48,565 bases of DNA from a virus. The stretch lies in IMG/VR virus record IMGVR_UViG_3300005731_000021, positions 1-48,565 of that record, one strand, 5' to 3'. Each line of letters begins with the position of its first letter. Positions within the stretch are counted from its first letter, which is position 1. Of the stretch, positions 680 to 27,710 are shown one piece after another. Under the pieces are notes generated by a model. That model searched no databases, was not told the origin of the DNA, and worked only from the letters and a program-made list of their open reading frames with translations. The position numbers were made by a program, and so were the translations under genes.

Positions 680-998
680 GTGCGTAAGCGACCAAACCCA
701 GTTCTGGGTGTGCAAGGGGGATGTCGCGCCCATTACAGGGTACCTCGTTCCGAAGGAATTATTCGGAGAAACTGTGCGCCTAGCGGAATTGGGCCAGTTA
801 CTCGAATCTTACGAGCCGGTGCTCGCTGAGATTTTGACGGGACTACAAGTCGTACAAGAGAACCAACAGGTACTCCGAGAAGTGGTGGTGCCTCCCGAGC
901 CTTCCTTTGATTGGACCGCGGCCCTTGTCGGGTTTGGTGTTGGTACTGTAGTGACAACAGCAATTGTAGTCGGCTCATTTTTCGCGTTTGCCCGCTAA
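588..998 (+). CDS. Secreted protein with C-terminal TM anchor, nested start inside the previous gene
   Basis: A 136-aa protein whose N-terminus has the n-h-c pattern of a signal peptide: Met-Lys-Arg-Arg-Lys, a hydrophobic core, then VPASA|E, a good signal peptidase I site. It is not a lipobox, because Glu precedes the Cys. Two Cys just after the site could form a disulfide. A hydrophobic segment of about 20 residues ends the protein, so the mature form would be a periplasmic domain held by a C-terminal anchor. The ATG at 588 or 597 is chosen because upstream starts would spoil the signal peptide. It overlaps the preceding gene by about 90 nt in another frame, as Rz1-type genes do. The 3' end overlaps the convergent minus-strand gene by 24 bp. 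Function unknown; candidate lysis or exclusion protein. Confidence 0.6.
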   Translation: MRNMKRRKILRILMSLTLTWSTFLSVPASAECVSDQTQFWVCKGDVAPITGYLVPKELFGETVRLAELGQLLESYEPVLAEILTGLQVVQENQQVLREVVVPPEPSFDWTAALVGFGVGTVVTTAIVVGSFFAFAR

Positions 999-1166
999 CT
1001 TTCGTTGCATCAGGTAGAGCCACTGTTCTGGAGTAACCTCAGTAATCTCGTCCTCGAAGGAGATGAGCATTGTAGGCTCTTGCAGTTCTGGGGTGTTCAA
1101 TAGGTCGCGGAGGTCCTGTCGAATCTCTTCTGCAGTTGCTTTTCTGTCGACTTTACCCTTCGGCAT
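975..1166 (-). CDS. Small acidic protein coupled to the sigma factor
   Basis: A 63-aa, mostly helical, charged protein with no family I recognise. The start MPKGK is chosen because its ATG lies in the last codons of the sigma-factor gene (14-bp overlap), which suggests coupled translation. Immediate coupling to a sigma factor makes a partner or modulator conceivable, but no anti-sigma motif or membrane segment is visible. It is the last gene of the minus-strand operon, and its 3' end overlaps the end of the plus-strand late operon by 24 bp. Confidence 0.65.
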   Translation of the reverse strand: MPKGKVDRKATAEEIRQDLRDLLNTPELQEPTMLISFEDEITEVTPEQWLYLMQRKLAGKREK

Positions 1167-1722
1167 CTTTATCCTCGATTCCAAAATCTTCGATGATGCG
1201 CTTCAGCGGACCTTCTGCCCTTTTGACGTACTTGCGCGACCTATACAGCGTCGATGCAACGGTACCAATCGGTAGGCCTTCCGCCTCGACTATCTCAGTG
1301 TAGGACATCTCTTCGCCATGGTACTGGTAAAGCAGGTCGGTACCGTTCGGGGTCAACTCGCGGAGTAGCTCCTGAATCGTCTCCGAAAGGCCCGCGAACT
1401 CGATTCTGTCCATACGCCCTTGGGCGTCGTAGGTGTACTCAGAAATCACGCGAGTCTGCTCCACCAGCGTCGAGCTACGCAGCACCTCACGCTGATACTT
1501 CTGCTGTCTGAACTGGTTCATGGCGGTGTTCACGGCGATTGTAGCAAGCCATGCTCGCAGGTTGGTGCCTTCTTTGAACTTCTCTTGATTGGACAGCGCC
1601 TTGACGTAGGTATCCTGAATCAGGTCTTCCTTGTCTTGCAGCGATAGCGTAGACGAAATGCTCGTCAGCGTCTGCATCAGGTAGTCGTAGTATTCGGCGC
1701 ACCGGTCTGCGAAGTTATTCAT
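1153..1722 (-). CDS. ECF-type RNA polymerase sigma factor
   Basis: A 189-aa protein with the two-domain layout of ECF sigma-70 factors. Region 2 (about residues 8-75) carries KEDLIQDTYVKAL, the conserved segment that contacts the beta-prime coiled coil, followed by GTNLRAWLATIAVNTAMNQF, very close to the ECF region 2.2-2.4 consensus. Region 4 (about 113-168) includes an Ser-Tyr-Thr-Glu-Ile-Val helix and GTVASTLYRSRK, a helix-turn-helix that reads the -35 element. Known: such factors redirect host core polymerase to special promoters. Inference: it could switch transcription to the late plus-strand operon. It sits at the distal end of the replication operon and overlaps both neighbours. Regions 1.1 and 3 are absent, as usual for ECF factors. 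Confidence 0.9.
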   Translation of the reverse strand: MNNFADRCAEYYDYLMQTLTSISSTLSLQDKEDLIQDTYVKALSNQEKFKEGTNLRAWLATIAVNTAMNQFRQQKYQREVLRSSTLVEQTRVISEYTYDAQGRMDRIEFAGLSETIQELLRELTPNGTDLLYQYHGEEMSYTEIVEAEGLPIGTVASTLYRSRKYVKRAEGPLKRIIEDFGIEDKDAEG

Positions 1723-1930
1723 CTGAATTCCAATCTACGCCCGTGATGATTGCTGCATGTTCGACCCTTACTGGGACGCTTACGTGGTGGACAAGAGTGA
1801 CGTATTGGTCGGGATGGTTCGCCCGCTCTTGCTCCCGCCTATTGAACTCAGCGCGTAACTCTTCGTACTCTTCGTCGGTCAGGTTTTCCCAGTTTTCAAG
1901 AAGTTCGTTGTATCTATCTGGATCCATCAT
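1715..1930 (-). CDS. Small acidic hypothetical protein
   Basis: A 71-aa protein. The N-terminal half is Asp/Glu/Asn-rich and helical (NELLENWENLTDEEYEELR), the C-terminal half is beta-prone with HHVSVPVRVEHAAII. The start at 1930 (Met-Met-Asp-Pro) is chosen because it forms an ATGA overlap with the stop of the phosphoesterase gene. Its stop overlaps the start of the sigma-factor gene by 8 bp. No known family recognised; the tight coupling to the sigma gene is the only functional clue. Confidence 0.7.
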   Translation of the reverse strand: MMDPDRYNELLENWENLTDEEYEELRAEFNRREQERANHPDQYVTLVHHVSVPVRVEHAAIITGVDWNSDE

Positions 1931-4726: not shown

Positions 4727-4926
4727 TCGTCTTCCATAGTAAGTTGTAAGGTCCCGGATGCAAGACCGCTGAGATATTTGAGTGCAGGTGACATCTCGTA
4801 ATCCGGCTTCAGTATCGCTTCGATGTCGTCGGCTTCGATTGTATAGTAGTTTTCGACTTGCCACTTCTGTCCGTTAGAATCGATTATCCATATTTCTGGT
4901 TGGGGTACTTTTGCCGGTGGACTCAT
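4723..4926 (-). CDS. Hypothetical 67-aa protein
   Basis: A small soluble protein with alternating hydrophobic residues in the first half (PEIWIIDSNGQKWQVENYY) and an acidic second half. No motif or family recognised. Its TGA overlaps the endolysin ATG (ATGA), so it is translated with the lysis genes, but that alone does not prove a lysis role. Upstream lies a short non-coding stretch with a 20-bp tandem duplication. Confidence 0.65.
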   Translation of the reverse strand: MSPPAKVPQPEIWIIDSNGQKWQVENYYTIEADDIEAILKPDYEMSPALKYLSGLASGTLQLTMEDE

Positions 4927-4962
4927 TTATGCCTCTCACTTTGCTCGTGCCATCGACCTAAC

Positions 4963-5002
4963 CTAATGTCGAAATGTCGATACTAATGTCGAAATGTCGA
5001 TA
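4963..5002. repeat. Perfect 20-bp tandem duplication
   Basis: CTAATGTCGAAATGTCGATA occurs twice back to back (4963-4982 and 4983-5002). Each copy itself contains two ATGTCGA units. The flanks also match: the 3' end of the small gene at 5004 (GGTCGGCGACACGAG then AGGCACAAATGA on the minus strand) is echoed just upstream of the 4926 start (GGTCGATGGCACGAG, then AGGCATAAATGA). This looks like a local duplication of a gene end with its coupling signal, followed by decay. Confidence 0.85.
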
Positions 5003-5003
5003 G

Positions 5004-5126
5004 TCATTTGTGCCTCTCGTGTCGCCGACCTAGCAGGTAAAAGTACCCACAGATTGCGTGTCCTACCAGCACCCAAAAGCCAGTGATGGTCCAGTAAAAG
5101 ATAGTTTCAAGGGTTTCGATAGTCAT
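5004..5126 (-). CDS. Tiny single-TM membrane protein (40 aa)
   Basis: A 40-aa frame with an aromatic hydrophobic core (residues about 9-32, IFYWTITGFWVLVGHAICGY) and a basic tail ending RRHERHK. Its ATG forms an ATGA overlap with the stop of the next upstream gene, in keeping with every other junction in this operon. That overlap and the membrane-like composition are the evidence for a real gene. Function unknown. Confidence 0.6.
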   Translation of the reverse strand: MTIETLETIFYWTITGFWVLVGHAICGYFYLLGRRHERHK

Positions 5127-11163: not shown

Positions 11164-11179
11164 ATTTTCTCCATTTTAG

Positions 11180-11252
11180 GGGAAACGACAGGATTCGAAC
11201 CTGTAATCCGAGTAGCTACCTCGAACGCGTTGCCGCCACGCGCACCGTATCC
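11180..11252 (-). tRNA. tRNA-like element (fold gives anticodon AGC; identity uncertain)
   Basis: On the minus strand a 73-nt cloverleaf can be drawn. Acceptor GGATACG/CGTTTCC has six pairs and one T-T mismatch. The D stem is CGCG/CGCG with a GG-containing loop. The anticodon stem is TCGAG/CTCGG with loop GTAGCTA (U33 present). The T arm ACAGG-TTCGAAT-CCTGT is canonical. The CCA end is not encoded. The read-off anticodon AGC would be alanine, which is rare in bacteria, and position 37 is an unusual U, so the gene may be degenerate or misfolded here. It lies between protein genes in the replication operon. Confidence 0.6.
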
Positions 11253-13514: not shown

Positions 13515-13516
13515 AG

Positions 13517-13588
13517 GGCTCTCGCACAGAATCGAACTGTATTCTCCCGGACCACAACCGAGCGCATTACCAATATGCTATCGAGGCC
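13517..13588 (-). tRNA. tRNA-His (anticodon GTG)
   Basis: A 72-nt cloverleaf on the minus strand. The D stem is GCAT/ATGC with loop ATTGGTA. The anticodon stem is CTCGG/CCGGG with loop TTGTGGT (U33, anticodon GTG). The T arm is TACAG-TTCGATT-CTGTG. The acceptor is GGC-CTCG against CGAG-A-GCC, so one A is bulged or the stem shifts by one. A C at the discriminator position and an available 5' G fit the special G-1:C73 pair of tRNA-His. CCA is not encoded. The 3' end nearly touches the helicase start codon. A hairpin GCCGG/CCGGC lies just upstream. Confidence 0.75.
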
Positions 13589-16485: not shown

Positions 16486-16715
16486 TTGAGTTCTCCTGTG
16501 TAATCCACCCAACTTTCTGCCACCTTCTCTCGCGTCTCCATGTCGTACACGTGTGCCCAATCGTAGATATAGACAGACCTGAAGACGTTCTTTGCTTCCC
16601 TCATTGCCTCCGCTTTGGCTTCTTCTACTGTCTCGTAGAAGTTAATCAGATCCCTGATGCCTCCAGTCGGGTAGTAGTTATCGCCCGCGAATAGTGCGTA
16701 TCGTTTGTTACTCAT
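16476..16715 (-). CDS. Hypothetical 79-aa protein
   Basis: Starts MSNKRYALFAGDNYYP, then a helix rich in Glu/Ala and a beta strand (SVYIYDWAHVYD). This resembles small phage alpha/beta proteins built to about 80 residues. The ATG at 16715 has GGAGG nine bases upstream and overlaps the stop of the previous gene. No function assigned. Confidence 0.65.
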   Translation of the reverse strand: MSNKRYALFAGDNYYPTGGIRDLINFYETVEEAKAEAMREAKNVFRSVYIYDWAHVYDMETREKVAESWVDYTGELKWR

Positions 16716-17107
16716 TGTCCGCTCCCTCCACACTTACTGCACGGGTCTTCGATGGTTGTGAATCCGACGTACTTGCCTTTACCGTTACATGCTGGGCAGA
16801 CCGTCCTAAACTGCATCGTTGGTGTGCTTCGCCGTTCGCGGTTAAGTGGTAGCAAAAGGTCTGACAGGTTCTCCAAGCACACTACGTGCGACGTAAGGCA
16901 GTTTCCATAGTTTGGCCATCGCAAATCCACGGTAAGTGAATGGTCACGGCGCATGGTAATGAGTTCAAGCCGTGCCAGTTCTGTCTCATTTCCGTTCATC
17001 AGCACGTTGTAGTGCGCGCCGCGGATGTATCGCCTGCTGCCCGCCTCCCACGATGTAGCTTGGTTTGTCTGCGCATCGCGATTGACTTTCCAATCTAGGT
17101 TATTCAT
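16712..17107 (-). CDS. Protein with C-terminal DnaJ-type zinc-finger repeats
   Basis: A 131-aa protein. The C-terminus has CPACNGKGKY and CSKCGGSGQ, two CxxCxGxG knuckles like those of the DnaJ central domain, which together bind one zinc. The first 90 residues are unassigned and contain no J domain (no HPD), so this is not a co-chaperone in the normal sense. Knuckle pairs of this type occur at the ends of many small phage proteins. The GGAGG for the next gene is encoded within the last codons. Confidence 0.65.
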   Translation of the reverse strand: MNNLDWKVNRDAQTNQATSWEAGSRRYIRGAHYNVLMNGNETELARLELITMRRDHSLTVDLRWPNYGNCLTSHVVCLENLSDLLLPLNRERRSTPTMQFRTVCPACNGKGKYVGFTTIEDPCSKCGGSGQ

Positions 17108-17963: not shown

Positions 17964-20369
17964 CTAGTATTGTTGGCTCAGTATCTTCATTTCAAAGCCG
18001 CGGGCGTCTGATGTCCGTGACCTTTTGTATCCTAGATTTGTGAGTCTACTGGTTAGTTGGCGTCTTGTCAAACTATTATTACCAGTTTCTCTACACCAGC
18101 GTTTGTATTCGCCGTGGACCTCTTTATAGCTGGCGAATCCGCCCTCGCTCTCGTCTGGTTTGGCCAAGCATTCCGACATAAATTCCAATACCGGGTCGGC
18201 GTGTTCCTTCCACTCCTCCATCACGTCGTCGCCGGGGGCATTGGGCGTCACTTGGTACTTCTGGTGTTGCAGGCGGATGTAACCTTGTACGCACCATGCC
18301 GCAAACCAACTAGGGGGTGCACCCGCTTGGATGTGCTCGAAGAAATTCGGTCGCCGGTCCTCTACAGGGACAACATTGTCGAACTTCGCAATCAGGATGC
18401 GCCGCCAGATTCCATCCTCCACGTTGTAGGTGTCGGGCAGTTGGTTGGCCGTGAACATCAGGCCCGCCTCACTCATGAATTCGAATGCCTTCCCGTACTT
18501 CTCACGGGCTTGGATTTCGCCGCCGGAGATGATGTTCTTGATGTACATCGTCGAGCGAAATGCCCATGGTGGCACCTCTTCGACCAGTGAGATTTTCTTA
18601 CCCACCAGCTTCGCGCGCAGATATTCCTTACCAAAGTGCTGCGGGCCGATGGATGTCGCCGTGTCGCCGAAGAAGTGCCGAAAGATGTTTAGTAGCTGAC
18701 TTTTGCCCGTCGCGGGTTTCCCGTACAACATCAGGCCTTTCTGAAGTTTGGTACACTGACCGAAGAGTGCCGCGCCCGCGAATTCCTGAATCATCTTGTA
18801 GGTGTTGTCGTCGCCCAAGGTGCCGCGCAACCACTCTTCGAAAAACTCGTTGCGGGCAGCGTGGTCGAAGTCGAAGTCCTTGTAGTCCAAGCAGTAATGT
18901 TCGGGCGTGTGTGATTCCAGTGCACCTTCGTCGTTCAAAAACCCGTTTCGGAAGGATACGCCCGGCGTGCGTGGTGGCATCGGGGATGCGGAGGATAGGC
19001 CTTTGTCCTCTAAGCATGCGCGAATGTTCTTGGTCATGCTGGCCGAAATCTTGATTTCCGGGTACTTCTCGTTTCCTTTTGAGTCGAAGTAGGGCTTGGC
19101 GAATGTCCCGTGGTAGGGTGCGATGAATCGGCTGTAGAATTCCCCGGTTTCCATCGGTCGCCATATACCTTTGTCGGCCTCGTAGTACCACTGCCTACCT
19201 GCGGCAAACAGGACATTAATGTCAGGGTGGTCTGCAAGAAGTTCCATAATGGCTTCGGCGATGGCAAAGTCTGCGGCTTCATCGGGTTGCACAAGTTCTG
19301 CTCCGGTTACAGGGTCTGTGGCGGCACCGGCTGTGTTGGCCGTGATGCGGCGCTGTTCTGCAAGGTATTCGATGCAGTAGTCGTCCCACTTGCTGGAGTC
19401 CCACGGGTTGCCGTCGTCCGGGGACTTTGCAAGGTGAATGATGGAATTGATTTGGACTTCGATGGTATCGCGGTCGAAGGTTTGGAATTCCTCCCACTTC
19501 GCATCGAAGGCATGTTGTTCGAAGTTGTTGGCATACTTGGACCACTCCAATGCGGCTTCGCGGGCCTCGTTGCCGTAGGTGGCGTAGAGTGCCAGCAGCA
19601 CCGTGTACCACTGATGGTATTCGGTGGCGTCGATGTGGAGTAGCATCATCTCGACGAATGGCCGTAGTGGGGGTATGGGGCGCGCGAGTGACCCCAGATT
19701 TGCGTTGGTGGATGCTACATTGGTGAAGCGTCCTGTCGGTGAAGAAATCGATTCTGGGGCATCTGGCGCGTTTGTGGTGGGTGTGCCCATATGCTGGGTA
19801 AGTATGTCGGGTGTGTTTCTGTGGTCGAGGGACCCGTCGAGTGTGGTGTCTTGTCCTCCGAAGTAGGGAAGCCACACGAAGTTGCCGTAGCCTTTGCCTT
19901 TTGCGCGGTCCTGCTTGGGAAAGAGGTCGACGCCTTGGGGTGGTTTTTTCGCATTGGGGTGCAGGATATCTCGCAGTAGGGTGCGTACGGCGTAGGCGTG
20001 GACGGGTGCCTCAAAGATAATCCAGATGTGGTAGCCCTGTAGCGAGCGTGACTGGCAGGCATAGTATTGGATGTCGCGGTCTTCGAGGCGCTGGCAGTAG
20101 TCGACTAGGGTTGCTTCAGGGTCTTCGTTGGCTACCGCGTGGTCTGGTCCACCGTCGATGTCGATAACGGCGAAAGTGGTAGCACCATCGGAATTGGGGC
20201 AGTAGGCACCACGACGCTCTTCGCCTTTCAGGTGGCGCTCGATTTGCCAGCGGCGCTCATAACCGTTGATGGCGAAGGGGTTGATGGCCCCGGAGGCGTA
20301 TTGGACGACGCATTTGTCGTGGAACTGTGTCAGGTGCGTCAGGTTGTCGAATAGGGTGTAGTTGTTCAT
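17964..20369 (-). CDS. AEP primase-SF3 helicase fusion
   Basis: An 801-aa replication initiator. The N-terminal archaeo-eukaryotic primase domain shows FAVIDIDGG (Asp70, Asp72), SLQGYHIWIIFE (His114) and GVDLFPKQ (Asp148), the three AEP motifs, followed by FVWLPY. Residues about 235-345 look like a PriCT helical linker. The C-terminal half is a superfamily 3 helicase: Walker A GKPATGKS (550-557), KISLVEEVP as Walker B (592-600), LMFTAN as motif C, and an Arg finger in IWRRILI. Start at 20369 with AGAGG upstream; the longer frame to 20609 would run over the promoter. It is the first gene of the operon and adjoins the non-coding region that probably contains the origin. Confidence 0.9.
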   Translation of the reverse strand: MNNYTLFDNLTHLTQFHDKCVVQYASGAINPFAINGYERRWQIERHLKGEERRGAYCPNSDGATTFAVIDIDGGPDHAVANEDPEATLVDYCQRLEDRDIQYYACQSRSLQGYHIWIIFEAPVHAYAVRTLLRDILHPNAKKPPQGVDLFPKQDRAKGKGYGNFVWLPYFGGQDTTLDGSLDHRNTPDILTQHMGTPTTNAPDAPESISSPTGRFTNVASTNANLGSLARPIPPLRPFVEMMLLHIDATEYHQWYTVLLALYATYGNEAREAALEWSKYANNFEQHAFDAKWEEFQTFDRDTIEVQINSIIHLAKSPDDGNPWDSSKWDDYCIEYLAEQRRITANTAGAATDPVTGAELVQPDEAADFAIAEAIMELLADHPDINVLFAAGRQWYYEADKGIWRPMETGEFYSRFIAPYHGTFAKPYFDSKGNEKYPEIKISASMTKNIRACLEDKGLSSASPMPPRTPGVSFRNGFLNDEGALESHTPEHYCLDYKDFDFDHAARNEFFEEWLRGTLGDDNTYKMIQEFAGAALFGQCTKLQKGLMLYGKPATGKSQLLNIFRHFFGDTATSIGPQHFGKEYLRAKLVGKKISLVEEVPPWAFRSTMYIKNIISGGEIQAREKYGKAFEFMSEAGLMFTANQLPDTYNVEDGIWRRILIAKFDNVVPVEDRRPNFFEHIQAGAPPSWFAAWCVQGYIRLQHQKYQVTPNAPGDDVMEEWKEHADPVLEFMSECLAKPDESEGGFASYKEVHGEYKRWCRETGNNSLTRRQLTSRLTNLGYKRSRTSDARGFEMKILSQQY

Positions 20370-20403
20370 AGATACCTCTAGAAGGTTCGTTAAAGATGTG
20401 GGC

Positions 20404-20432
20404 AGGTTACTGCGGTGGCGGGCACATGTCAA
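20404..20432 (-). promoter_or_regulatory. Sigma-70-like promoter for the primase operon
   Basis: On the minus strand TTGACA (20427-20432) is followed after exactly 17 bp by TAACCT (20404-20409). Transcription would start near 20397 and run into the primase gene at 20369, giving a short leader. The -35 box is perfect, the -10 box weaker. This is the best host-type promoter in the window and would allow early expression. Confidence 0.6.
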
Positions 20433-20653
20433 GATGTGCGGTGCATAAGAAAACAACTTGCGGCGGGGGAAAACTTCCAGTAAGGTGTTGCATGAGGGTT
20501 GGAGATGACCAAAGTGGTTGTCGCCCTCGTTGATAACAATGCCCATTGTTGAAAGGGCAACCGCCGACGAAGTGTCTTCGTTTGCGGGTAGATGGAAGAG
20601 GTACCTCACACGCGTTAAAGATAGACTCCTTCCCGAGTCGCTGATTGGAGAAG

Positions 20654-20698: not shown

Positions 20699-20750
20699 AA
20701 ATCGAAAATCAAAATCGAAAATCAAAATCGAAAATCGAAATCGAAAATCG
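20699..20750. repeat. Short tandem A-rich repeat
   Basis: A 13-bp unit (ATCGAAAATCAAA) occurs twice in a row from 20701, followed by shorter variants to 20750. All are built from GAAAATC and AAATCG. The A tracts on one strand every 5-6 bases could bend the DNA. It lies just after the terminator-like hairpin in the candidate origin. Confidence 0.8.
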
Positions 20751-21037: not shown

Positions 21038-21371
21038 AAGTGGGTTTTTGGTGGGAATTGGCCGACTAAAAAATTTCTGATTTCAGAAAAAAAATAATTT
21101 TTTTGGAGGTTCGGAAAATTATTTACTCAGTAAATATTTTTTATTTGGGGGATTTTCGCGCTTTCGCGGGATGCTCCCGCCGCCCGCCGCGGCGATTTTT
21201 CCCACCAATTTCTGAGGGAATTTGGCATACCAATGCCTATACCAATAGGGAGGATATTTTTTTGGTGGGGGGCCCGGAGGGGCCTTGGAGGGTACCCTAG
21301 TCTATCATAGGTGGCTAGGCCGCGTCAAGCGGGTTTTTGGATTATTTTCGTTTTTCTCGCTTTTTTTTGTT

Positions 21372-21587
21372 CTAAATATCTGATTTGAAGTCCTCCTTAT
21401 AACTATCGTACGAAGGGACAGCATCGTGCTTTTCTAGAATCGCCCAAATTTCGTCGGCTTGCTCCATTAATTCAGTTTGTGTTTCCCATAGTGCAGGGTT
21501 TTGTTCTGGGCAATCAAACATTGCATTGATATCTGATTCCAATTTCGCGTGCTGTCTCTTAAGCTTCTGGATTTCTGTGTTAGTCAT
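21372..21587 (-). CDS. Small acidic coiled-coil-like protein (71 aa)
   Basis: Starts MTNTEIQKLKRQHAKLES, a helical segment with heptad spacing, and continues with a second acidic helix. The ATG at 21587 is preceded by AAGGATAGAG. It stands alone on the minus strand, upstream of the candidate origin, and faces away from the plus-strand small-gene block. No family recognised; a small early protein is likely. Confidence 0.6.
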   Translation of the reverse strand: MTNTEIQKLKRQHAKLESDINAMFDCPEQNPALWETQTELMEQADEIWAILEKHDAVPSYDSYKEDFKSDI

Positions 21588-21928
21588 GTTCTCTATCCTT
21601 TTGTTATGTTGAACGTGCTACTAGTCTGCCTAAGTAAAAGGTATTTGTCTAGTCTTTTTTGTGCTTTATTTGGAAACAATCTGTTTTTTGTCGTGCACAA
21701 TAAAAGACAAAAATACTAGCAAAACCCGTGCCAAGTTTTTCTGCCTATTAAAACGCGTGCGCGCACACGTAGCAAAACGCGTGCCAACTTTCGGCAATTT
21801 CCTGGAAATGTGCGAGGTCGATTGTTTCCATCAGAAAACAGAATGTTTCGAAATGAAGCACAATAAAGTATTGCCAAAACGTTTTGACTGTGTCAGACTG
21901 CAAACACTGAACGAACAAAGGACACACA
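21588..21928. other. Divergent non-coding region with AAAACGCGTGC repeats
   Basis: About 340 bp between divergent genes, so it should hold promoters for both, but I see no convincing -35/-10 pair. Three related repeats stand out: AGCAAAACCCGTGCCAA (21718-21734), AAAACGCGTGC (21750-21760) and AGCAAAACGCGTGCCAA (21771-21787). A GCCTATTAAAACG element overlaps the second. These are candidate operators. Confidence 0.55.
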
Positions 21929-23157: not shown

Positions 23158-23481
23158 ATGTTTGAGAATCACGACATATTCGAACTAGCAGAAAAACACG
23201 GTGCACAAATTGCGAGTGACATTATTGTACTTCGCGACGCTGTTAAACGTGGCATCTTTTGTCAGGGTTGCGACCGCAAAGGCATGCTCTATTTTGATAG
23301 CGCGCACCTTCTCATCATTCACCATAATGACCGTGATTCACGTTTCGTTAGGTGCTGCAAAACTTGCGCAACGGACACAATTCAAGGCCTAATCGATGAA
23401 GGATACGCGGCCAAAAAATGGACTATTGTGTCACAATCTGGCATGGTCGGAACGACCTTTCCACAATACGAAAATGAGTAG
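23158..23481 (+). CDS. Four-Cys zinc-finger-like protein (107 aa)
   Basis: Contains CQGC near residue 38 and CCKTC near residue 65, separated by about 25 residues with His, a likely zinc-binding unit. The N-terminus is helical (IFELAEKHGAQIASDIIVLR). AAAGGAG lies before the ATG at 23158. The stop overlaps the start of the gp88-like gene by eight bases. Role unknown. Confidence 0.65.
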   Translation: MFENHDIFELAEKHGAQIASDIIVLRDAVKRGIFCQGCDRKGMLYFDSAHLLIIHHNDRDSRFVRCCKTCATDTIQGLIDEGYAAKKWTIVSQSGMVGTTFPQYENE

Positions 23482-24223
23482 AACAATGACAAAATTCGAC
23501 AATATTAAGACAACGAAACTTCTTTCAATCGCTGCAGATGCTAAGACCATCAAAGGGCAGAAGAAAGGCTATCTAACCGGCATTCTGTACCTTGCGCCCG
23601 CAACGCAGGCGGGTGTGGGTGATATGTGCCCGAAACGCTCTAAGGGGTGCACTGACTCATGTCTATACACTGCAGGCCGCGCAGTTATGTTTTCGAGCAT
23701 CAACCAAGCGAGAATCCGCAAAACGCGCGAGTTTATGAATCACCGACAGGAATTCATGCAGGCGTTAGTGCGCGATATCTATCGACTCAAACGCAAGGCA
23801 AAACGCGAGGGATTAACGCCCGTTGTGCGCCTGAATGGTACGTCAGATGTATCATGGGAACGTATTAAATTCGTGCCAGAAAACGGCGTAGAAAAAACAA
23901 CGCTCGCGGAATTGTTCCCGAATATTCAATTCTATGGATACACAAAAAATCCCCTTCGATTCAAGCGCTTGCCGGACAATTGGCATCTAACATTTTCGCG
24001 TAGTGAATCTAATGATGACGCAGTCCGTCAGGTATTAGAGCAAGGCCATAACGTGGCAGTGGTTTTCAACAAACTACCTAATACATGGCAAGGAAAGCCG
24101 GTAGTCAACGGCGATGAGACAGACCTGCGCTTTCTAGACCCTAGTGGCGTAGTTGTAGGGTTGAAGGCGAAAGGGGATGCAAAGGCTGATAGTAGTGGGT
24201 TTGTAGTACAGGCGAATCTATGA
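23474..24223 (+). CDS. Phage gp88-like Cys-motif protein
   Basis: A 249-aa protein with the pattern LAPATQAGVGDMCPKRSKG, then CTDSCLYTAGRA, then NQARIRKTREFM, and later YGYTKNPLRF and LTFSRSESNDD. This resembles the conserved phage family described as Gene product 88, whose function is not established. Three Cys close together (Cys52, Cys59, Cys63) could bind a metal or Fe-S cluster. No membrane segment or known nuclease motif is seen. The start may be 23474 or the ATG at 23486. It overlaps the preceding zinc-finger gene and is followed by a 35-aa membrane peptide by ATGA. Confidence 0.7.
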   Translation: MSRTMTKFDNIKTTKLLSIAADAKTIKGQKKGYLTGILYLAPATQAGVGDMCPKRSKGCTDSCLYTAGRAVMFSSINQARIRKTREFMNHRQEFMQALVRDIYRLKRKAKREGLTPVVRLNGTSDVSWERIKFVPENGVEKTTLAELFPNIQFYGYTKNPLRFKRLPDNWHLTFSRSESNDDAVRQVLEQGHNVAVVFNKLPNTWQGKPVVNGDETDLRFLDPSGVVVGLKAKGDAKADSSGFVVQANL

Positions 24224-24452: not shown

Positions 24453-24696
24453 CATCCTCGGGCGGGTGCTTCTTTGTTGGTCAACCAACCAATTCGAAAT
24501 CTATTTTGGGCCTGATATAATGCCAACTTCTGACACTATAGGGTGCACGGCTGAGTAGCACACTACGCTACTTCTTTGCTGGTATGATTGAGGGTTAGGG
24601 TTAGGTGTGTACGTGGCGTGTGGGCGGCGTGTGGTGGGCGCTAGGGGGGTATCCTTGCGATTTGCCTGTTCGGTGGGTTGGAGGGCGCGTGACAGT

Positions 24697-24822
24697 CGAA
24701 AAATATATTTTTTGGGGTATTTTTACCATGTCAAAAACCTTTCCCACTATACGGGCGGCCGAAAAATATATTTTTTGAGGTATTTTTACCATGTCAAAAA
24801 CCTTTCCCACTATACGGGGCGG
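24697..24822. repeat. Two tandem copies of a 63-bp repeat
   Basis: Copies at 24697-24759 and 24760-24822 differ by one base in the T-rich part and one indel near the end. Each contains the palindrome GGTATTTTTACC, TGTCA, and CACTATACGG. On the minus strand each has TTGACA directly before the palindrome, as in a promoter with an operator between -35 and -10, but the -10 box is poor. The length is a multiple of three, so a minus-strand frame reads through both; I consider that accidental. Confidence 0.8.
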
Positions 24823-24899: not shown

Positions 24900-25304
24900 T
24901 TATGGTTCTAGGCGTTTAACTGGGGTGTCCCTGTTTGTATAATATACATGAGGGTCACCACCCAATCGGCAGTAGTAAGCATGCCCCTGTTTGGCATAAC
25001 CTAAAAATCTGCGGGGTGGATTTTCAAAATCTGAGTTCGAGAAAAAACAAAAAATGTCGAACTGCTTTAGTGAATCGATGGGTACCATTGCACCCTCTTC
25101 CTCGACCACACACAAAGCCTGCTTACCCATCCGAAATACTCTACCATTTTCCGTGAGATAGAAGACACCGTCGTTGGTATCCGCTGGATGTGGCTCGACA
25201 ATTTCCCAGAATTCAGGCTCAGGCTGACGCCACCAAAGTTTAAACTTGTCCCCAACTTTGAGTTGGCCTGCGAGAACTTCTTTGTAGGTTACTTTCTTAG
25301 TCAT
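24900..25304 (-). CDS. Hypothetical 134-aa protein with SH3-like N-terminus
   Basis: Begins MTKKVTYKEVLAGQLKVGDK, then KLWWRQPEPEFWEIVEP, the beta pattern seen in small SH3-like barrels, and reads YLTENGRVFRMGK further on. A similar VGDK signature occurs in the 17100-17672 protein. No function is known. It is the second gene of a two-gene minus-strand cassette lying between plus-strand blocks, consistent with a moron or independently regulated unit. Confidence 0.65.
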   Translation of the reverse strand: MTKKVTYKEVLAGQLKVGDKFKLWWRQPEPEFWEIVEPHPADTNDGVFYLTENGRVFRMGKQALCVVEEEGAMVPIDSLKQFDIFCFFSNSDFENPPRRFLGYAKQGHAYYCRLGGDPHVYYTNRDTPVKRLEP

Positions 25305-25698
25305 TTGCTTTCTCCGGTGCAGGTGGAATGGTTACGTTGAAACTGGATGCAATATCTCCTGTCCAGTCAGCTCTTGGACAGAAACCCTTCTTTGGATGCC
25401 AGTTAAATGTTGAGTCGTGCATACATTGAAGCACCCTTAGCAGATTTTGCTGCTCTTTTGTAACACGGAAGGGTAGCGCGTCTTGAATCAAATGATTCAG
25501 CACTGACAGACCTTCAAGACTACGATAGTAGTTCTCATCTGGAATCAGGCACCCCACGGCACATTTTGCTCCACCTCTTCCGCGGTAGGCACACCCATAT
25601 GTAGCGCTACGGGTCATGCTTCGCTCGCCCTGCTCATACAGGTGCGCGAAGACACTGTCGACGATTTCTTGGTTTGTGATTTCTGGTTTACCGGTCAT
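25297..25698 (-). CDS. Conserved hypothetical protein with AKCAVGCLIPDENY motif (133 aa)
   Basis: Contains GAKCAVGCLIPDENY, a pattern I recall from small phage and bacterial hypothetical proteins of unknown function, followed by a helix and a short linker. The N-terminal segment is helical (TNQEIVDSVFAHLYEQGE). AAGGAGAAAG precedes the ATG. It is the first gene of the minus-strand cassette and overlaps the next one by eight bases. Its promoter must lie in 25699-25830, shared with the divergent late operon. Confidence 0.7.
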   Translation of the reverse strand: MTGKPEITNQEIVDSVFAHLYEQGERSMTRSATYGCAYRGRGGAKCAVGCLIPDENYYRSLEGLSVLNHLIQDALPFRVTKEQQNLLRVLQCMHDSTFNWHPKKGFCPRADWTGDIASSFNVTIPPAPEKAND

Positions 25699-25830
25699 TT
25701 GCTTTCTCCTTTTTGACTAGGTGTAAGCACTTTGACATACCTCTACCCGCCCCGTCAAGGGAAAAATTTCGCCTATAAACGTGTTTGGTGTCATGCGGGT
25801 GCTCCATGCACCTGCTTGCAGGGAGCAAAT
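25699..25830. promoter_or_regulatory. Divergent control region of the late operon
   Basis: A 132-bp gap between the minus-strand cassette and the terminase genes. On the plus strand TATAAA (25774-25779) within GCCTATAAACG is a -10-like element; a perfect TTGACA lies at 25732-25737, but too far (36 bp) for a normal pair. A hairpin GCGGGTGC/GCACCTGC precedes the ribosome site AGGGAGC. A similar GCCTAT(T)AAAACG element sits upstream of the other plus-strand block. An ECF-type late promoter could be here. Confidence 0.4.
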
Positions 25831-26328
25831 ATGACGAAGAAACTACCCACGGGTCGGTTTACGGACATGTTGATGTCGCGTAAAGACGAGCTTTTTGTTG
25901 GCTACGCCCACCTTGAAGAGCCGCCCTATGACCTAGCCGACCGATTTACCGAACTCATTAAGCGGGGCTTACGCCTTCACAGGGCCGCAGCGCGCTTGGG
26001 CGTGTCGCAGGGGACGCTTGAGAAATGGTTCAACAACGCGCTGGATGGCAACGCGCAATGCGCGCAGTTCTTTCAGCGGTTGGTCGAAGCCGAGATTGAC
26101 TTGGAGAGCGAGCTAATTGACTTCCACCTGCACGGGTCCCGCCAGACCAGCACAGCAGCAAAGACTATCTTGACGCGACGCTTCCCAGAAGAGTGGGGGC
26201 AGGAGGACGACGAAGGCGAGCAGAAAGGTAAGGGGCAGCAGGCCGTGGTGAACAACTCGGTTATCTACATGCCCGAACAAAAGCCCCTGCCCGTGGCAGT
26301 CACGGCCATTGACTTGGACGACGAATGA
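25831..26328 (+). CDS. terS: Terminase small subunit
   Basis: A 165-aa protein directly upstream of, and overlapping by ATGA, the large terminase gene. The central part is a helix-turn-helix (HRAAARLGVSQGTLEKWFNNA), which binds the packaging site. The C-terminal part has Asp/Glu-rich stretches and the segment AAKTILTRRFPEEWG, common in small terminase subunits. The start MTKKLPTG is chosen because AGGGAGC precedes it; the longer frame has a Cys-rich N-terminus without a ribosome site. First gene of the late operon. Confidence 0.8.
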   Translation: MTKKLPTGRFTDMLMSRKDELFVGYAHLEEPPYDLADRFTELIKRGLRLHRAAARLGVSQGTLEKWFNNALDGNAQCAQFFQRLVEAEIDLESELIDFHLHGSRQTSTAAKTILTRRFPEEWGQEDDEGEQKGKGQQAVVNNSVIYMPEQKPLPVAVTAIDLDDE

Positions 26329-27710
26329 GCGAACCTATCCGACCCCAACCCGGCCCGCAGACGGAATTTTTGTCCTCGCCCGCCGACATTGTTGTGTACG
26401 GGGGTGCTGCCGGTGGCGGAAAATCCTTCGGCCTGCTGCTGGACATGGCCCGCCATGTGAACAATCCGCAGTACCGCGCGGTTATTTTCCGCCGGTCCTA
26501 TCCGCAGATTGCAGCGGGTGGCGGTCTTTGGGATGAGTCGATGAAGCTCTACCCACTTTTGGGGGCCAAGCCGCAGACAAAGGACTTCCGCTGGGTGTTC
26601 CCATCCGGTGCGGAAATCAAGCTGACGCACATGCAGCACGAAAAGTCGAAGCTGGAGCACCAAGGGGCACAGTACGCGCGCATCGGATGGGACGAATTGA
26701 CGCACTTCGAGGAGAGCCAGTTCTGGTACCTGATGTCGCGTAACCGCTCGACCGCCGGGGTGCGGCCACAGGTGAGGTGCACCACCAACCCAGACGGGAA
26801 AAGTTGGGTGAAAAAGTTCATTGCGCCGTGGGTGGATTCGAGTTTCAGGCGGATGAATCCCCTTGCGGCGGAATCCGGCGAGATTCGCTACATGCTGCGG
26901 ACCGGCGACCACTTGGAGTGGATGACGCCCGCCTATTATGCGGAGTGGAAGGAGCGTAATCCGTCCCGCAACCTGAAGTCGGTCACGTTCATCTCCAGCC
27001 GATTGTCGGACAACAAGATTCTGATGGAGCTAAACCCCGAGTACCTAGAAAACCTCGAATCCATGGCACTTGTTGACAGGGAAAGACTGCTGCACGGGAA
27101 TTGGGACATTTCCGACGATGATTTGCTGCTGAACAAGGACTGGTTCAAGATTGTCGACGAATCGGAGATACCTTTCGCCAATTTGACGCAGTTTTGTCGC
27201 TACTGGGACCTCGCTGCGACCGAAAAAGAGACGGATAGGCGAGCCTGTTTTACCTGCGGGGCGCTGCTTGCGAAGGATAAAATCACCGGAAATATCTACA
27301 TTTTGGACGTGATTCGGAAGCAATACAACCCCGTCGCGGTGCGAAATTTGGTGTTTGACACCATCGAGTATGACCTAAACCACTGGAGTGGACAGTGCAA
27401 CTCCAGTACCTACAAGGTTCGGATGGAGCAAGAGCCGGGTGCAACCGGGAAAATCGTCATCGATGACTTCGCACGCGAGATTGTTGGCGTGAATTTTGAT
27501 GGGGACCGGCCGACCGGCGACAAGTTCACGCGAGCCACACCACTAGCGCAGAAAGCCGAGCAAGGGCGCATGTTTGTACGCAAGGCTCCCTTCAACAAAG
27601 AGTTGATGAATGAAATTGAAACGTACCCTGCGGGGTTGAAAGACCAGATTGATGCCGTTTCGGGTGCGCTGCCATTCATTGCACGTACCGGCGGCTTTGC
27701 TTTTGCGTGA
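26325..27710 (+). CDS. terL: Terminase large subunit
   Basis: A 461-aa packaging ATPase-nuclease. Walker A is VYGGAAGGGKSFG (about 24-36), Walker B ARIGWDEL (about 117-124), the coupling motif lies in CTTNPDGKSWV, and the nuclease domain has CRYWDLAATEK with an Asp, then DKITGNIYILDVI, and the closing acidic DQIDAVSGA. Layout and length fit the Terminase_6/HK97-like class. It drives DNA into the prohead and cuts the concatemer. Because no cos-like site was searched successfully, the packaging mode (cos or headful) stays open. Confidence 0.93.
   Translation: MSEPIRPQPGPQTEFLSSPADIVVYGGAAGGGKSFGLLLDMARHVNNPQYRAVIFRRSYPQIAAGGGLWDESMKLYPLLGAKPQTKDFRWVFPSGAEIKLTHMQHEKSKLEHQGAQYARIGWDELTHFEESQFWYLMSRNRSTAGVRPQVRCTTNPDGKSWVKKFIAPWVDSSFRRMNPLAAESGEIRYMLRTGDHLEWMTPAYYAEWKERNPSRNLKSVTFISSRLSDNKILMELNPEYLENLESMALVDRERLLHGNWDISDDDLLLNKDWFKIVDESEIPFANLTQFCRYWDLAATEKETDRRACFTCGALLAKDKITGNIYILDVIRKQYNPVAVRNLVFDTIEYDLNHWSGQCNSSTYKVRMEQEPGATGKIVIDDFAREIVGVNFDGDRPTGDKFTRATPLAQKAEQGRMFVRKAPFNKELMNEIETYPAGLKDQIDAVSGALPFIARTGGFAFA

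Follow-up and report, generated by a model that had tools for sequence, protein, structure and literature searches.

Does the gene at positions 1153-1722 (minus strand) of this phage encode an ECF-type sigma factor, and could such a factor direct the transcription of the late genes? The window, i.e. the whole stretch of 48,565 nucleotides that was analysed, corresponds to the virus record IMGVR_UViG_3300005731_000021 and belongs to a bacterial virus. The 50 bases at its start recur unchanged at its end, which indicates a circular or circularly permuted genome whose unit measures 48,515 bp. Two gene clusters converge at positions 975-998. The leftward replication cluster encodes, in this order, an AEP-type primase-helicase (17964-20609), a PD-(D/E)XK nuclease, a helicase, a family A DNA polymerase, a RuvC-like resolvase, a dNMP-kinase-like protein, an exonuclease, a protein with a weak endolysin match, a metallophosphoesterase, a 71-aa protein, the sigma factor and a 63-aa protein. 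The rightward cluster starts with the terminase small subunit TerS (25831-26328, plus strand; phrog_4102, 8.1e-12) and also encodes the terminase large subunit TerL (26325-27710, plus strand; phrog_979, 1.6e-128), the portal, the capsid, a head-tail adaptor, the major tail protein, a tail chaperone and the tape measure protein. The tail genes are of the siphovirus type and, in agreement with a siphovirus, the scanned proteins included no sheath protein. Gene spacing suggests that the leftward 20 kb forms a single operon, in which the sigma gene is the penultimate one, as it had been placed in an earlier sequence-only reading of this DNA; only the 63-aa gene follows. The gap 4865-5122 was discarded as an intergenic region, as small genes were seen in its reading frames.

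The sigma gene starts with ATG and its frame is intact. Its codon usage is phage-like and matches that of the long genes of the phage (0.228 per codon), and the antisense and alternative-frame ORFs overlapping it have codon scores below zero. The 189-aa product was analysed by searches in Pfam, PHROG, NCBIfam and PDB, and with Foldseek. Two domains were found above the Pfam cut-offs, namely Sigma70_r2 at residues 25-75 (4.5e-11; 42.8 bits, cut-off 24) and Sigma70_r4_2 at residues 114-164 (6e-7; 29.4 bits, cut-off 25.7), while no match to sigma3 was obtained in Pfam. Sigma2 thus spans approximately residues 1-80 and sigma4 approximately residues 114-170. The sigma70-ECF model of NCBIfam (TIGR02937) was matched with 62.3 bits (cut-off 42.9), and PHROG_1740, annotated as 'RNA polymerase sigma factor', with an E-value of 1.3e-19. 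With regions 2 and 4, no region 1.1 or region 3 domain and a length of about 190 aa, the protein displays the features of ECF (group 4) sigma factors. The conserved columns of both sigma2 and sigma4 are retained, and the alignment shows that the recognition-helix pattern of SigH, PIGTVxSxLxRxR, is retained too. The ECF assignment with both regions in 189 aa, initially read from the sequence alone, was therefore upheld by the profile searches in all three family collections.

Structural comparison gave a consistent picture. Among the 24 PDB sequences matching the protein at an E-value of up to 1, SigH of Mycobacterium tuberculosis was the best (1.2e-15), and SigH initiation complexes ranked first when the model was submitted to Foldseek. 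AlphaFold2, for which an alignment of window and locus proteins was used as input, produced confident models of sigma2 (pLDDT blocks of 81-94, residues 1-70) and sigma4 (pLDDT 78-93, residues 121-160), separated by a poorly modelled linker. As it is uncertain how the two domains are positioned towards each other (pTM 0.46), full-model TM-scores against PDB were low (0.3-0.4). Taken by itself, sigma4 aligned at 2.1 A to region 4 of E. coli sigmaE bound to -35 DNA (2h27). All these data confirmed that positions 1153-1722 (minus strand) encode a complete two-domain ECF sigma factor.

Two small genes overlap the sigma gene by a few bases each. The 63-aa gene (975-1166, minus strand), an ORF with phage-like codon usage, overlaps its end and closes the leftward cluster. 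Directly upstream, an acidic protein of 71 aa is encoded at 1715-1930 (minus strand), defined from the second Met pair of a GTG ORF covering 1715-1999. Neither protein gave a meaningful family match in Pfam or PHROG, and direct inspection of both sequences revealed no HxxxCxxC zinc anti-sigma motif. No signature of a cognate anti-sigma factor was detected beside the sigma gene in Pfam or PHROG. The modulating role initially suggested for the two small genes was not supported.

The relatives of the protein were further investigated. The best cellular matches were SigH-type proteins of Corynebacterium (36% identity), followed by proteins of Flavobacteriales and Acidobacteriota. On the viral side, three phage-like contigs of IMG/VR reached up to 34% identity, and the ECF proteins of Bacteroides, Rhizobium and crAss-like phages 25-31%. 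The latter (DAC19, phiM9, RHph_Y68 and cr55_1) are likewise phage-encoded and of the PHROG_1740 type, but they come from larger genomes (~90-180 kb) and no supported clade joins them with the window protein. Clear similarity to one ECF group, as claimed initially, was not supported. Actinobacterial SigH/SigR (TIGR02947, SigH_actino) was the best NCBIfam subgroup, but with 79.9 bits it remained far under the cut-off of 251.55. Placement in an ECF tree failed as well: among 44 sequences, the window protein appeared as a long-branch orphan (branch length 2.68) outside all supported clades, including the SigH clade (support 97/97), and such a long branch makes its placement unsure. It also differs from SigH/SigR by the lack of an adjacent zinc-type anti-sigma gene. 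Phage ECF factors showed about eight label changes across the tree, at least two of which are forced by well-supported branches, and they appear to have several origins. No close relative was found with the sigma protein among genome contigs, nor with the metallophosphoesterase or the primase among viral contigs. Furthermore, Sigma70_r2 was absent from 34 records of TerL relatives (35 searched in all), many of which are fragments, which suggests that the sigma gene was acquired separately by this lineage. A broad alignment of phage ECF factors was dropped as search profile, as it was too diverse. Record MT835748.1, labelled 'Bacteriophage sp.', was rejected as the nearest phage relative, its SigH-like gene lying amid genes resembling those of an actinobacterial chromosome; the record is probably mislabelled. 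That such a factor would be uncommon in a siphovirus was overstated: in the viral structure library, uncultured siphoviruses (ctxc31, ctqSm5, ct3gT1 and ctYh54) are represented by similar proteins with annotations as RNA polymerase or sigma subunits, and a siphovirus sigma factor is thus unremarkable in itself.

Members of PHROG_1740 include two phage proteins of proven function, gp47 of Salmonella phage 7-11 and gp36 of Escherichia phage phiEco32 (phi32_gp36). Both direct late transcription by the host RNA polymerase, and phi32_gp36 also middle transcription (PMC8948821); sigma factors of this type were classified as ECF (PMC7881722). Plain BLAST did not reveal any similarity of the window protein to gp47 or gp36. 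A profile built from the protein and its relatives, however, matched gp47 over 158 columns (E-value 7e-10); no full-length profile match to phiEco32 gp36 was obtained. With 185 aa, a sigma2 domain and a recognisable sigma4 domain, gp47 resembles the window protein, while in gp36 region 4 is not recognisable and the promoter used consists of a single element, tAATGTAtA (PMC8948821). The three phages share the same layout, with the sigma gene deep in a leftward functional cluster and the structural cluster running rightward. In 7-11, the sigma gene sits deep within a long leftward transcript (PMC8948821; layout also in PMC4331800), by genes for an exonuclease, a phosphoesterase and a dNMP kinase. 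Differences were noted as well. Phage 7-11 is an elongated podovirus of 90 kb with eight known late promoters of the bipartite type GTAAtg-(16)-aCTA (PMC8948821), against the single one proposed here, and phiEco32 possesses gp79, a sigma-70 inhibitor with no homologue known in the present phage. The late consensus of 7-11 was rejected as a motif for the present genome, where it occurs below chance level (6 matches, 11.7 expected).

In the leftward control region, consensus and weight-matrix scans identified a sigma-70-like promoter, TTGACG-18-TAGACT (21299-21328, minus strand), upstream of the replication cluster, which is a candidate start for a transcript that would extend to the sigma gene. 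Sigma-70 scores above 10 were obtained in this region and in the gap at 24.2-24.9 kb. On the plus strand, an extended -10-like site, TGATATAAT, was found at 24494-24521 and TTAACT-16-TATAAT at 24916-24943. Directly before TerS, the best sigma-70 score was an unremarkable 6.7; pieces drawn at random from the genome have their 90th percentile above this value. A search for a motif shared by three upstream regions, including that of TerS, had been suggested initially as a check, but no single motif is common to all three. A 36-bp element is indeed common to the regions upstream of the genes at 21587 (21653-21688, minus strand) and 21929 (21833-21868, plus strand), with 31 of 36 positions identical, but it is missing before TerS at 25831. 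The two copies stand in mirror orientation before two divergent early gene groups, and weaker similarity extends towards the start codons. This element is probably a duplicated and inverted early control element and not a site for the sigma factor. Tandem repeats were also observed in these regions. A 13-nt unit, AAATCGAAAATC(A/G), is repeated at 20699-20749 on the downstream side of the leftward control region; it is iteron-like and possibly marks an origin. A 59-nt unit is repeated with 98% identity in the non-coding gap at 24697-24818, each copy carrying TTGACA-16-AAAAAT on the minus strand; it has no obvious downstream gene and is possibly a small RNA, a promoter or an origin.

In sense-oriented intergenic DNA, a scan for SigH-type sites revealed a candidate late promoter, GGAAA-N18-GTT, preceded by G (GGGAAA-N18-GTT), at 25760-25785 (plus strand), 46 nt before TerS. 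A second, weaker match with a spacer of N19 lies at 21776-21802 (minus strand). SigH of C. glutamicum tolerates GGAAN as -35 and GTT as -10 element with a spacer of N17-19 (PMC10012870). The probability of finding the TerS site by chance in its 132-bp region was 0.004-0.024 with simple shuffles and 0.010-0.040 with dinucleotide shuffles, and across all intergenic DNA it was 0.1-0.2; these values are somewhat flattering, as the site was first spotted by eye. Only one of the 27 rightward gene starts, that of TerS, is preceded by a SigH-type site at 20-150 nt (0.5% for random positions). The classic ECF motifs GGAAY-N-CGTC and GGAAC-N-YGTY were absent from intergenic DNA, and no repeated motif was found among the late upstream regions. 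Since the protein falls outside the SigH clade, the SigH consensus may not apply to it. Met170 of C. glutamicum SigH was modelled as contacting positions -31/-30; in the phage protein, alignments read by eye show apparently an alanine at this position, and a different base at -31 would agree with this.

Given the precedent of 7-11 and phiEco32, the common PHROG_1740 family and the same layout, it is likely that the ECF factor acts as a switch for middle or late transcription. Host sigma-70 polymerase would start in the control region at 20.6-21.9 kb and read leftward; with about 20 kb to cover before the sigma gene is reached, the factor would be made late. The sigma factor would then bind the host core RNA polymerase, sigma4 reading a GGAA-type -35 and sigma2 a short GTT-type -10 element, and the resulting holoenzyme would start shortly ahead of TerS (candidate site 25760-25785) and transcribe the rightward cluster of packaging, head, tail and lysis genes. 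In this scheme, gene order and not an anti-sigma factor would account for the delay. The sole SigH-type site on the late side precedes TerS, a gene without a good sigma-70 promoter in its immediate upstream region, and this argues for such a switch. The delayed late switch proposed initially hence remains plausible, with a proven precedent and one candidate site. That single site, with its chance level over intergenic DNA, contrasts with the eight late promoters of 7-11 and counts against the switch. The narrower proposal, a siphovirus late switch acquired separately from the phiEco32 group and acting through one host-like SigH-type promoter (GGAAN-N18-GTT) before the packaging genes, is tentative.

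The strong sigma-70-like sites at 24494 and 24916 (plus strand) also count against the switch, as they could feed TerS via read-through. Late transcripts would then be made by host sigma-70 polymerase, either from these sites or through read-through or antitermination, while the main task of the ECF factor would be to redirect host genes, e.g. a stress regulon, in favour of infection. This agrees with the cellular SigH-type stress factors being the closest matches of the protein, and phage sigma factors acting on host programmes exist, as for phage Eldridge and sporulation (PMC9429907). It is nevertheless unlikely, as transcription from these sites must pass two opposite-strand genes (24900-25698) to reach TerS and the layout is that of phages with sigma-driven late genes. 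The factor could also drive late or middle genes from promoters of a non-SigH-like type which the scans do not recognise. The orphan position of the protein, the lack of classic ECF motifs and the low count of the 7-11 motif point in this direction, as does the history of 7-11, where bioinformatic searches failed as well before primer extension was used (PMC8948821). As the recognition helix retains the SigH pattern and TerS is the one rightward gene with a SigH-type site 20-150 nt ahead of it, this variant of the late switch, partly covered by the likelihood given to the switch as a whole, is considered possible but doubtful. Finally, a recently picked-up sigma gene without a role, decaying or non-functional, would agree with its long branch and its absence from the TerL-relative records. 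This is highly improbable, as the frame is intact, the codon usage is that of the phage, the conserved columns of sigma2 and sigma4 are kept and the neighbours are tightly packed.

As the strategy of an ECF-driven late switch is already proven in other phages, the phage studied here most likely adds a well-placed new member to a known kind of system. With it, ECF factors become good late-switch candidates in a wider range of phages, and a single, specific promoter is predicted. ECF factors are used as orthogonal regulators in synthetic biology, and a phage-encoded one that lacks an evident anti-sigma partner would extend this set in compact form.

Some additional features of the genome were observed. 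In the primase-helicase (17964-20609, minus strand), the archaeo-eukaryotic primase domain is of the type found in TOTE conflict systems (AEP-TOTE, 6.4e-21) and is accompanied by PriCT-2 and D5-like helicase parts. The protein encoded at 16712-17107 (minus strand) displays a DnaJ-like CXXCXGXG zinc region with a score under the cut-off. In the rightward early group, a protein of the GP88 family is encoded at 23396-24223 (plus strand; Pfam 1.9e-43, phrog_1617 3.2e-76). Two tRNA genes were detected, tRNA-His at 13516-13588 and tRNA-Ala at 11179-11252 (minus strand), the latter with the anticodon AGC, which is unusual for bacteria and their phages.
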